DNA from: Phaeocystidibacter luteus
GTDB taxonomy: Bacteria; Bacteroidota; Bacteroidia; Flavobacteriales; Schleiferiaceae
Direction of reading: 5' to 3'
NCBI RefSeq assembly: GCF_008933115.1
Contig: NZ_WBVO01000012.1
Coordinates: 1-64,000 of the forward strand
Length of the DNA stretch: 64,000 nt
In this document: one piece after another, positions 6,682 through 28,831 of the stretch
Layout of the letters: every line of letters begins with the position of its first letter
Position numbering within the stretch: position 1 is the first letter of the stretch
Position numbers and translations under genes: made by a program
The notes under the pieces: model-generated
Databases searched by the model: none
Told to the model about the DNA's origin: nothing
What the model saw: the letters and a program-made list of their open reading frames with translations, nothing else

Positions 6682-6714
6682 AACGAAATTTAGAAAAGGC
6701 TCAAAACTTTGAAT

Positions 6715-7854
6715 ATGGCTACAGATACTACCAGTTTGAAATTGGAGAAAATCTTCACAGATGCCGAAGACTTTCTTCCGCTCAACGGAACCGACCACGT
6801 AGAACTCTTCGTGGGAAACGCCAAGCAAGCAGCACACTTCTATAAAACAGCATTCGGATTTCAGGGTGTGGCTTACGCTGGACTCGAAACCGGAATGAAG
6901 GACCGTACAAGCTACGTTCTTCAACAAGGCAAAATTCGCCTAGTTCTTACCTCGCCTATGAGCGCCGATGGCCCGATCAACGAGCACATCAACAAGCACG
7001 GCGACGGGGTGAAGAACGTTGCCCTCTGGGTAGACGATGCTGTGAAGAGCTTCGAAACTACAACCGGCCGTGGCGCTGAGGTTGCTTTCGAACCAAAAAC
7101 CATCGAAGACGAAAACGGAAAGGTTGTTATTTCTGGAATCAAAACGTACGGTGAAACGGTTCACGTATTTGTTGACAGAAGCGAGTATGACGGTCCGTTT
7201 ATGCCAGGATACCGCGCATGGGATAGCCACTACAAGCCAGAAGATACAGGCTTGAAGTACATCGACCATATGGTTGGTAACGTAGGTTGGGGCGAGATGA
7301 ACAAGTGGGTTGAATTCTACGCGAAAGTGATGGGATTTGCGCAGTTGATTTCATTCGACGACAAAGACATTTCTACCGAGTACACGGCTTTGATGTCAAA
7401 AGTGATGACCAACGGAAACGGTCGCATCAAGTTCCCAATCAACGAACCAGCAGAAGGAAAGAAGAAGAGCCAAATCGAAGAATACATCGATTTCTATAAC
7501 GGTGCAGGTGTTCAGCACATCGCAGTAGCTACTGATGACATCATCAAAACGGTTTCTGCTATGAAAGACCGCGGCGTTGAGTTCTTGTACGTTCCAGATA
7601 ACTACTACGAAGATCTTCTTGAACGCGTCGGTGATATCGACGAAGACATCGCAATTCTGCGTGAACACGGCATTTTGGTTGATCGTGACGAAGAAGGCTA
7701 CCTGCTTCAACTCTTCACAAAACCAGTTGCTGATCGTCCAACTCTATTCTTCGAAATCATCCAACGTAAAGGAGCTCAAAGCTTCGGTAAAGGAAACTTC
7801 AAGGCGTTGTTTGAAGCAATCGAAAGAGAGCAGGATAATAGAGGAACGCTCTAG
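6715..7854 (+). CDS. hpd: 4-hydroxyphenylpyruvate dioxygenase
   Basis: The enzyme converts 4-hydroxyphenylpyruvate to homogentisate, the substrate of the upstream gene product. The ATG at 6715 (MATDTTSLKL) is preferred over a TTG two codons earlier. Two vicinal-oxygen-chelate halves are seen: the N-terminal half from NGTDHVELFVGNAKQA, the catalytic C-terminal half from YIDHMVGNVGWGEM. The iron ligands should be His in IDHMVGNV (about 184), His in GVQHIAVATDD (about 267) and Glu in LFFEIIQRKG (about 346). Length (379) is normal for the family. Together with hmgA it forms a two-step tyrosine-degrading unit. Confidence 0.95.
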   Translation: MATDTTSLKLEKIFTDAEDFLPLNGTDHVELFVGNAKQAAHFYKTAFGFQGVAYAGLETGMKDRTSYVLQQGKIRLVLTSPMSADGPINEHINKHGDGVKNVALWVDDAVKSFETTTGRGAEVAFEPKTIEDENGKVVISGIKTYGETVHVFVDRSEYDGPFMPGYRAWDSHYKPEDTGLKYIDHMVGNVGWGEMNKWVEFYAKVMGFAQLISFDDKDISTEYTALMSKVMTNGNGRIKFPINEPAEGKKKSQIEEYIDFYNGAGVQHIAVATDDIIKTVSAMKDRGVEFLYVPDNYYEDLLERVGDIDEDIAILREHGILVDRDEEGYLLQLFTKPVADRPTLFFEIIQRKGAQSFGKGNFKALFEAIEREQDNRGTL

Positions 7855-7857
7855 AGG

Positions 7858-7980
7858 TGTTGGAGGGTTAGAGGTATTGGAGGGTTAGAGGGTTAGAGGG
7901 TTGGACTCTTGGACTCTTGGACTGATGATCCGACCAAAAGGGAGGAATCCCGAGAGGCGCAGCCGACTCGGGAGAGGGTC
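7858..7980 (+). repeat. GGAGGGTTAGA / TTGGACTC repeat with conserved hairpin, copy 1
   Basis: Tandem short words (GGAGGGTTAGAG three times, TTGGACTC in series) lead into TCCCGAG-AGGCGCAGCCGA-CTCGGGA, a seven-base stem. A reverse-oriented counterpart at 30094-30230 has the same order of parts and the same hairpin core (GGCTGCGCCTCTCGGGA). Partial copies lie at 1-20, 28186-28250 and 28597-28640. Confidence 0.7.
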
Positions 7981-8027
7981 AGACCTACTTCCGCTTCTCT
8001 ACAGCACCTCAAGTTAGATATAGGAAG

Positions 8028-8056
8028 GCCTGCCGGTTTACGGTGGGTCTTTTTTT
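8028..8056 (+). terminator. Possible terminator
   Basis: GGCCTGCCG-GTTTA-CGGTGGGTC forms an imperfect stem with G-T pairs, followed by TTTTTTT. It lies 170 bases past hpd and could end that transcript. Confidence 0.4.
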
Positions 8057-8069
8057 GTGATTTTATGGG

Positions 8070-8233
8070 GCGCTGCGCGCAAGAAACTGCGTTTAAGGTG
8101 CTTCGCACAAGACACTGCGTGTAAGGCGCTTTGCGCAAGAAACTGCGTTAAGGTGCTTCGCACAAAACACTTCGTGTAAGACGCTACGCGTAAGGCTCGT
8201 GGAGCAAGGCGCTTCGCGCAAGACGCTATGCGT
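8070..8233. repeat. Tandem array of 14-bp micro-hairpins with co-varying stems
   Basis: After a first hairpin GCGC-TGC-GCGC (8070-8080), eleven units follow head to tail, each AAG (once AAA) + 4-base arm + 3-base loop + complementary 4-base arm. The arms in order are AAAC/GTTT, GTGC/GCAC, ACAC/GTGT, GCGC/GCGC, AAAC/GTT (13-base unit), GTGC/GCAC, ACAC/GTGT, ACGC/GCGT, GCTC/GAGC, GCGC/GCGC, ACGC/GCGT. Arm sequence changes between units but pairing is kept in all complete units, so substitutions are compensated. Degenerate units recur at 8314-8354. The pattern is not a CRISPR (no spacers) and has no reading-frame period. Confidence 0.9.
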
Positions 8234-8248
8234 AAGGATGGCGTTTGT

Positions 8249-8388
8249 CTTGCCGAAGGATGAGGCCTTTTCAAAGCTTAAAAAGCGCAGAACTTGCTGA
8301 GGTACGAGGCCTTAGAAGCTGCGTGTAAGATACTACGCGTGAGGTGCTTTGAGCAAGGGGGAGGCGTTGCTTGCCGAGGTACGAGGCC
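8249..8388. repeat. Three copies of CTTGCCGAGGTACGAGGCC
   Basis: CTTGCCGAAGGATGAGGCC (8249-8267), CTTGCTGAGGTACGAGGCC (8294-8312) and CTTGCCGAGGTACGAGGCC (8370-8388) are interspersed with degenerate 14-bp hairpin units. They form a second repeat woven into the same block. Confidence 0.75.
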
Positions 8389-8393
8389 CTTTA

Positions 8394-8455
8394 TTCGCCG
8401 TAAGGCGAAGAACCTTTTCCCGCGTGAGCGGGATCCTTTTGCTTCGCAGAAGCAA
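8394..8455. repeat. Three successive hairpins separated by CCTTTT
   Basis: TTCGCC-GTAA-GGCGAA (8394-8409), CCCGC-GTGA-GCGGG (8419-8432) and TTGCTT-CGCAG-AAGCAA (8439-8455) have unrelated stems but share the spacer word CCTTTT. The block abuts the 3' end of trhO. On the minus strand the spacer reads AAAAGG, so these are not standard terminators for that gene. Confidence 0.7.
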
Positions 8456-8457
8456 TC

Positions 8458-9549
8458 TTAACAGGGTTTACTATACCTCTTCTTCGTCCTTCCCTCCTTC
8501 GCCCACTGCTTTCGAATCACTTCCTGCTCTTCTTCTGGGAGGTGGATGATATCCTGACATTCATTCGAGCATGTGCCTTCGTTTTCTGCAGCGCACTCTT
8601 CACATTGAATGAATAGTAGGTTGCAAGCAACGTTTTTACAGTTGGTGTGGGTGTCGCTAGGCTTGCCACATTGGTGACATTTTGAGATCACTTCTTCCGA
8701 GATATGCTCTCCCAAGCGATCGTCGAAAACGAAGTTTTTGCCACGGAATTTATTCGGAAGTTCTTGCTCCTTAATCTGACGCGCATAATCGATGATGCCA
8801 CCGTGTAGCTGGTTCACGTTTTCAAATCCGTGATGCTTCAAATATGCAGAGGTCTTCTCACAACGGATGCCACCTGTACAGTAGAGCAATATTGGCTTGT
8901 CTTCCTGACCTTTTAACTTGTCGAGCACTTCCGGAAGCTCTTCGCGGAAGGTTTCCGCATCAGGAAGAACGGCGCCTTCAAAGTGACCAATCTCCGTTTC
9001 GTAGTGGTTACGCATATCAACCACGATCGATTCACCCGACTCCATGAGCTCATTCCATTCTTGAGCGGTCAAATGTCGACCCACGTTCGTAACGTCATAT
9101 TCGGTCTCTGGAAGTCCGTCGGCCACAATTTGATTTCGAACCTTTACCGCGAGCTTGAGGAAAGACTTTCCATCATCCTCAACTGCGATTTTGAAAGGCA
9201 CATTGGCAAACTGTTCGATAGCGTAAAGCTGTTTTACAAATGCTTCCCAGTTGTGCTCAGGTACGTTCATTTGCGCATTGATTCCCTCGCGTGCGATGTA
9301 TATCCGACCTAAACAATTCAAGTCGTCCCACATGGCATACAAACGGTCGCGCATTTCCTCAACATTCTCAATAATCACATAACGGTAGAAAGAAACAGTT
9401 CTGCGAGTAAAGTCCTCAGCGTCAAGACGCTTCTGTAGCTCCTCTCGGTCGTACTTGTTGTACAGTGCTCTTTTGGGTTGTTTGCGTGATTCTTCCATGA
9501 CATCCTGAATTTCAGGGTGCAAAGGTACGCCGATTTCATCGGAAAACAC
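8458..9549 (-). CDS. trhO: tRNA uridine-34 hydroxylase TrhO (rhodanese family)
   Basis: A rhodanese-like protein that hydroxylates uridine 34 in the wobble position of certain tRNAs, the first step towards 5-methoxyuridine/cmo5U-type modifications. The N-terminal part ([32 protein letters not shown]) is the family-typical acylphosphatase-like domain. The rhodanese domain follows at about 165-265 with the active-site loop CTGGIRC. A Cys-rich tail ([26 protein letters not shown], about 290-335) is also typical. An alternative ATG at codon 18 ([16 protein letters not shown]) would remove a poorly conserved N-terminus and may be the true start. Confidence 0.88.
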
Positions 9550-28153: not shown

Positions 28154-28185
28154 AATCCTCGTCGGTAGACGGGGATTTTTTTTTT
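28154..28185 (+). terminator. Rho-independent terminator of sucAB
   Basis: AATCCTCGTC-GGTA-GACGGGGATT forms a ten-base stem (one mismatch or G-T pair), followed by nine T. It begins 24 bases after the sucB stop. Confidence 0.92.
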
Positions 28186-28250
28186 GGAGGGTTAGACTAT
28201 TGGAGGGTCAGAGGGTTAGACTGTTGGACTGTCAGAGGGTTAGACGGAGG
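28186..28250 (+). repeat. GGAGGGTTAGA / TTGGAC low-complexity repeat, partial copy
   Basis: TTGGAGGGTTAGACTATTGG and AGAGGGTTAGACTGTTGG-type words repeat with an approximately 10-base rhythm. The same words occur at 7858 and, inverted, at 28597-28640 and 30150-30230. Confidence 0.65.
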
Positions 28251-28407: not shown

Positions 28408-28620
28408 CAAGCCCCAAGCCTCAAGCCTCAAGTCTCAAGCCTATTGATGTCAACCTTTCAATACTAGCTTAACGTCCAACCCTCCAACTCGCTGACAGTC
28501 TGCTAGTTCATTTAACCCCCGCATTGGCTTAGACTCGCGGGATTTCCCCACAAGCCCCAAGCCTCAAGCCTATTTATGTAAACCTTTCAACTCTAGCCTA
28601 GCGTCCAACCCTCCAACCCT
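28408..28620. repeat. Direct repeat pair starting CAAGCCCCAAGCCTCAAGCC
   Basis: Copy 1 (28408-28490) and copy 2 (28551-28620) share CAAGCCCCAAGCCTCAAGCC, then CTATT(G/T)ATGT(C/A)AACC, then TTTCAA(T/C), and end in CGTCCAACCCTCCAA. Copy 1 has an extra CTCAAGTCTCAAGC insertion. Non-coding. Confidence 0.75.
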
Positions 28621-28831
28621 CTAACTCTCTAACCCTCTTTTCTCCGGAGGGGCTCCACCCCCGCCCCCTGTAGCGAAGTTCTAGATTTATAGGGATAACT
28701 ATGGTCTGTTCAAGAGGACGAATCAGGGACATTTGGTTGACAAATGGTGGACATTTTCTCTAACCTGAAGATTCGTTTTGTTGTCTACGATGTGTCTTAT
28801 TGAGAAACAGCAGAGGGGCCAATTACTGTAT

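Follow-up and report, generated by a model that had tools for sequence, protein, structure and literature searches.

How can a run of short hairpins vary the letters of its arms and keep them paired? The question is raised by an intergenic region of Phaeocystidibacter luteus within the window that we analysed, a stretch of 64,000 nucleotides from contig NZ_WBVO01000012.1. Twelve units stand head to tail at 8070-8233 (8067-8236 with the outer linkers), each following the hairpin plan AAG-N4-N3-N4' with a period of 14 bp, and eleven of the twelve are perfectly paired as 4+3+4. The remaining unit, at 8137-8149 (AAAC-TGC-GTT), has one base gone from its 3' arm. Two linkers depart from AAG, one reading AAA and the other, ahead of the first unit, GGG. 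The region is laid out as follows.

6709..7854, plus strand: hppD, encoding 4-hydroxyphenylpyruvate dioxygenase, the left flank (Pfam HPPD N-terminal and glyoxalase domains)
8022..8054, plus strand: predicted intrinsic-terminator-like hairpin of hppD with a T tail (consensus match, 14 pairs, 5-base loop)
8067..8136, plus strand: units 1-5 (GCGC.TGC, AAAC.TGC, GTGC.TTC, ACAC.TGC, GCGC.TTT), perfect 4+3+4 with AAG between them
8137..8149, plus strand: unit 6 (AAAC.TGC.GTT), 3' arm one base short
8150..8236, plus strand: units 7-12 (GTGC.TTC, ACAC.TTC, ACGC.TAC, GCTC.GTG, GCGC.TTC, ACGC.TAT) and the closing AAG
8237..8390, plus strand: degenerate continuation of the array, with a weak covariance-model match at 8327-8357
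8394..8455, minus strand: hairpins in reverse orientation (TTCGCC.GTAA, TCCCGC.GTGA, TTGCTTC.GCA), linked by CTT, which is AAG on the minus strand
8458..9549, minus strand: gene for a TrhO-like (UPF0176/rhodanese) protein, the convergent right flank (Pfam UPF0176_N, Rhodanese, Rhodanese_C)

HppD shares 89-91% amino acid identity with its counterparts in congeners, and comparison of the homologous site shows a different gene order downstream of hppD in both. The first array hairpin begins 15 bp past the predicted hppD terminator, while the reverse block at 8394-8455 adjoins the convergent trhO gene. Words such as CTTGCCGAGGTACGAGGCC in the degenerate continuation recur in other arrays of the genome.

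Among the eleven complete units (ten distinct), 40 of 40 cells are Watson-Crick pairs and no G-U pair is present. Changes are two-sided in 11 cells and one-sided in none, and covariation stands at 0.767 compared with 0.273 +- 0.073 in shuffles, a value that none of 500 shuffles reached. At three arm positions both members of the pair have changed together, far beyond what shuffling produces. The initial annotation was therefore right about the 14-bp period, the coordinates, the AAG linker and the six arm pairs, as well as about the full pairing of complete units and the matching of changes across arms. Its count of twelve units also stands, but TRF detects a 55-bp higher-order repeat inside the array (2.3 copies, 87%), and units 1-4 and 5-8 are duplicates (a duplication of 55-56 bp). 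The twelve units are thus not twelve independent events, and the independent arm types number about six to eight.

Further arrays occur across the genome. A degenerate two-unit pattern has 19 matches on five contigs of the 3.21-Mb assembly. A two-unit covariance model (R1), for which 15 dyads and their structure were supplied, finds 111 matches, about 100 of them beyond the window, at about 15 intergenic places; matches with E < 1e-5 lie on contigs C1, C3, C4, C6, C7, C8, C12, C22, C23 and C24. In the window it gives 42-50 bits to the dyads at 8164-8194 and 8206-8236. The few intragenic matches (C2:68112, C22:23389) are weak and probably due to chance. The short unit at these places is AAG-RYRC-TNC-GYRY, joined head to tail and accompanied by longer-armed variants. 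Read individually, the loci have arms of 4-9 bp, loops of 3-5 bases and AAG spacers (or AAGG, AAAGG), and several show higher-order repeats of 44-55 bp. Genome-wide parsing gave about 250 units, 138 of them distinct, though some are imperfect forced fits; a stricter parse gives 167 units (91 distinct), where shuffled sequence yields almost none. The initial annotation had held that its proposal would fall if no other array existed or if expansion of one unit could explain the count; about 15 loci with many other arms show that neither is the case.

Two comparisons make no demand for pairing. One contig, over 356 kb, has 22 fully paired AAG-N11-AAG segments versus 1.6 expected, and the same control in 400 kb of a congener gives 2 versus 1.4 expected. 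Within the array regions, taking every AAG-N11-AAG without a pairing filter gives 55 distinct segments, of which 32 are fully paired at four positions; Watson-Crick pairs fill 174 of the 220 cells, against a mean of 105 and a maximum of 122 in 1000 shuffles. These results, with those from the window, rule out a chance origin of the pairing. Exact words of 55 and 72 nt are common only to arrays a few kb apart, and words much longer than one unit are almost confined to neighbouring arrays. Blocks of units have multiplied by tandem duplication, and copies have passed from one intergenic region to others nearby. Searches of plasmids and phages returned no match to the arrays.

The arms vary yet remain paired, and the closing C-G pair and the class of loop are nearly invariant. 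C-G closes 163 of 167 units (87/91 distinct). On the AAG strand the triloops are TNC (82), TNT (24) or GNA (7) and the tetraloops mostly TNNC, so the CTT strand of the TNC and TNNC units reads C-GNA-G or C-GNNA-G. In DNA, GNA and GNNA loops on G-C stems form mini-hairpins of extraordinary stability, with a melting temperature of 78 C for GCGAAGC (PMC4686876). Judged by their letters, with the class taken as a GNA or GNNA loop, C-G closure and at least two G-C pairs on one strand, most units would qualify as stable DNA mini-hairpins on the CTT strand.

Variation in the four-base arms consists almost entirely of paired transitions. Arms of the form RYRC (GCGC, ACGC, GTGC, ATGC, GCAC, ACAC) make up 26 of the 32 distinct fully paired 4-bp units, so that the differences among these amount to transitions in each of the two arms; for AAAC, AAGC, GAGC and GCTC, compensated transversions are required, which have no route through a G-U pair. 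Young higher-order copies carry 6 and 21 one-sided changes versus 3 and 3 two-sided ones, and some one-sided mismatches have been amplified uncorrected, such as ACGC/GCTT in contig C7. The mismatches in imperfect parses (G.T 16, A.C 9, other 21) are not decisive as an RNA wobble signature. Loop third positions and G.T mismatches both indicate an excess of C-to-T change on the AAG strand, and because the excess extends to the loops, mutation bias also accounts for G.T exceeding A.C.

Orientation follows a simple rule. Wherever one intergenic region has both orientations, the outermost block on the left is AAG and that on the right CTT, as in the window, three C8 regions, one C1 region and two C22 regions, and also in C12, C7 and C22:129 kb (around a small ORF) when imperfect units are counted. 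Arrays are present in all four gene arrangements (+-, ++, --, -+) and the rule is common to them, so polarity follows the region and not transcription. One C1 region (C1:459.5-460.2 kb), flanked by divergent genes, consists of about three consecutive copies of the AAG-then-CTT module. This polarity could result if a break were extended at each of its 3' ends, or from inverted duplication at a fork. The higher-order duplication, the C-G closing pair, the GNA loops of the opposite strand, the transition-only arms, the opposing polarity and the reverse block at 8394-8455 all go beyond the initial annotation.

The genome carries other repeats as well. G-rich octamer tandem repeats (TTRGAGGG, TTRGACTN) lie at 7877-7924, 28184-28231 and 28609-28624 of the window; such runs number 24 in 457 kb of this genome, whereas three relatives, over about 930 kb, have none. 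The runs tend to have the G-rich strand leading inward from the gene edge, and the lineage-specific TTRGAGGG repeats tend to the same polarity as the arrays. A dispersed element some 50 bp long, CCGACCGAAGGGAGGAATCCCGAGAGGCGCAGCCGATTCGGGAGA, is inserted in octamer repeats and found in the window at 7930-7980 (plus strand) and around 30128 (minus strand), with eight copies in 420 kb. Three RAYT-like Y1 transposase genes, at C23:163 kb (L197), C11:6.4 kb (L202) and C1:16.8 kb (L203), are each flanked by their own tandem long-hairpin arrays such as GGGCTTTAGCCC, apparent REP/RAYT systems.

The expectation that relatives would hold similar arrays was not borne out by any of three approaches. The two-unit pattern is absent from both congeners. 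Under a strict filter the covariance model gives 56 matches here versus at most one weak match per genome in 119 relatives, and in 395 genomes of the class it likewise finds at most one weak match per genome. The single matches (E 1e-4 to 3e-7), which come from a dozen of the relatives and from two genomes of the class, are probably chance. Clustered C-loop-G hairpins, counted without regard to dialect, form 10 clusters in a 457-kb sample of this genome, known loci included; five relatives have 0, 1, 0, 0 and 0 clusters in 400, 334, 200, 160 and 40 kb. The family is lineage-specific, and comparable arrays were not found in the relatives or class genomes checked. No SbcD nuclease exceeds the cut-off here, nor in most family members checked, while the control genomes mostly have it. 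Since SbcD is missing from the array-free congeners too, loss of SbcCD was rejected as the cause of the arrays and does not explain their restriction to this species. The exonuclease VII large subunit is present in this genome.

The reading we favour, with middling confidence, is that the arrays are a lineage-specific repeat of the DNA itself that has multiplied through tandem duplication; its pairing would be maintained by hairpin-templated copying (template switching), which is the part we infer. When replication or repair leaves the DNA single-stranded, the CTT strand would snap into mini-hairpins with C-GNA-G or C-GNNA-G loops. A polymerase stalling at such a hairpin could switch template inside it and copy one arm from the other, which would transfer a point mutation in one arm (mostly a transition) to its partner. 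Units without a stable loop or closing pair would leave the cycle and decay. Re-copying of arms together with such decay would lead arrays to preserve structure and not sequence, and no function in a transcript would be needed. In reconstructed RNA histories, hairpins whose compensatory changes are instantaneous show an enrichment of loops that are stable in DNA (GNRA and CUUG, but not UNCG), and template switching is given as the cause (PMC8794818). The loops of the present arrays are of that kind. Quasipalindrome template-switch mutagenesis resembles this scheme in that one arm is copied from the other and DNA-stable loops favour the process (PMC8794818), but it is known as a mutation mechanism and not as the upkeep of a tandem repeat family.

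Arrays with different arms across the genome, covariation without one-sided changes in the window and loops stable in DNA all suggest template copying. Against it, one-sided changes persist uncorrected in young copies, folding is not below shuffles and the scheme does not account for the polarity; G.T exceeding A.C would also follow from selection on an AAG-strand RNA. On neither DNA strand is the array predicted to fold to a lower energy than its shuffles (z 1.1 and 0.6), because the palindromic units also pair with one another, and in plus-strand folding the units of the second half appear as local hairpins. The initial annotation had offered selection on a hairpin or templating of one arm from the other; the compensated arms agree with both, and between the two the data lean to a DNA-level process.

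The main mechanistic rival is spread of AAG-tagged, single-stranded hairpins by a Y1 (RAYT-like) transposase in the manner of REPs and REPINs, which we consider improbable. Like REP, BIME and REPIN sequences, the arrays are intergenic clusters of short hairpins with a fixed short tag and opposed orientation (PMC3116915), and three Y1_Tnp genes exceed the curated cut-off here versus 0 and 1 in the two congeners. However, each of these genes is flanked by different hairpin repeats of its own that lack AAG linkers, the arrays do not lie beside them, and two related genomes (G005, G019) have three Y1_Tnp genes yet no arrays. REP arms are conserved, unlike the 32 distinct fully paired 4-bp units and many 5-9 bp arms seen here, with long common words restricted to neighbouring arrays. 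In the part of the literature consulted, the REP tag is GTAG or CGTC at one end (PMC3733652); here AAG stands on both sides of the unit (A1/A2) in a 14-bp tandem period. Neither the conserved palindrome nor the tag of a REP or REPIN is found.

Other known repeats are more distant. CRISPR has identical repeats of about 23-50 bp and unique spacers of similar length, and the initial annotation correctly set it aside given 14-bp units, a constant 3-bp linker and variable arms. Allomyces mitochondrial double-hairpin elements and the organellar palindromic repeats of Fusarium, Lobosphaera and Volvox are likewise short palindromic hairpins, scattered between the genes of particular lineages and variably present among near relatives (PMC7218506), but they are separate, mobile and organellar, where the present arrays are bacterial, tandem and AAG-linked with C-GNA-G loops. 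In the mainly open-access literature that we searched, tandem micro-hairpin arrays of this kind are not described from bacteria, and nothing is closer than REPs. Cyanobacterial small dispersed repeats (SDRs) and short tandemly repeated sequences are lineage-specific and intergenic and have hairpin potential. They are defined by conserved sequence, unlike the arrays here, and are set apart by that description. SDRs are named in PMC3116915. The arrays are a true, unusual variant of bacterial intergenic palindromic repeats, for which we propose maintenance at the level of DNA.

Selection on RNA hairpins, with transcribed arrays acting in mRNA stability, termination or regulation and compensation passing through G-U intermediates, also appears unlikely. 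Compensated transitions are typical of RNA helices and G.T exceeds A.C on the AAG strand, yet the window array contains no G-U pair. The array starts beyond the hppD terminator-like hairpin, and arrays occupy every gene arrangement, divergent included, with an orientation independent of transcription. Predicted RNA folding pairs unit with unit in place of the micro-hairpins, at an energy within 1.1 sd of shuffles. Over 7800-8520 no Rfam covariance model matches up to E = 1, so no known structured RNA family is recognized. On these grounds a role in the transcript is unlikely. Nor are the units intrinsic terminators, which have a G+C-rich stem and a T run: a terminator scan called none of the twelve, only 8022-8054 and the reverse-block hairpin at 8418-8433.

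It is quite unlikely that a nucleoid, gyrase or recombination protein uses the arrays as double-stranded sites or as cruciforms, with selection for palindromy. They are intergenic, clustered and palindromic, with arms that alternate purine and pyrimidine, but a duplex-binding protein would want fixed arm letters, which here vary; the strand asymmetry of the loops would be unexpected, and relatives show no conservation. An ordinary minisatellite (VNTR), in which a single unit expanded and mutated at random and the pairing is the founder's legacy, is very improbable: the higher-order duplications (55 bp in the window, 44-55 bp elsewhere) fit it, but differences are paired across arms far beyond shuffles in the window and genome-wide, and many loci have unrelated arms of 4-9 bp.

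Returning to hairpin-templated copying, a more tentative extension is that the hairpin and not the sequence is inherited: mini-hairpins whose loops are exceptionally stable in DNA may renew their arms by self-copying, increase in number in tandem and extend from each edge of an intergenic region towards its middle, which would produce the AAG/CTT polarity. The study of RNA evolution has long asked how matched arms persist when their letters change; as an answer, template switching has been proposed mainly from reconstructed histories of structural RNAs. Here some 250 micro-hairpins lie in a single genome, in DNA that is seemingly untranscribed and with loops that are special in DNA. Present at about 15 loci in this species and at none in the relatives checked, they therefore offer a natural case for how hairpins stay matched without conservation of sequence.
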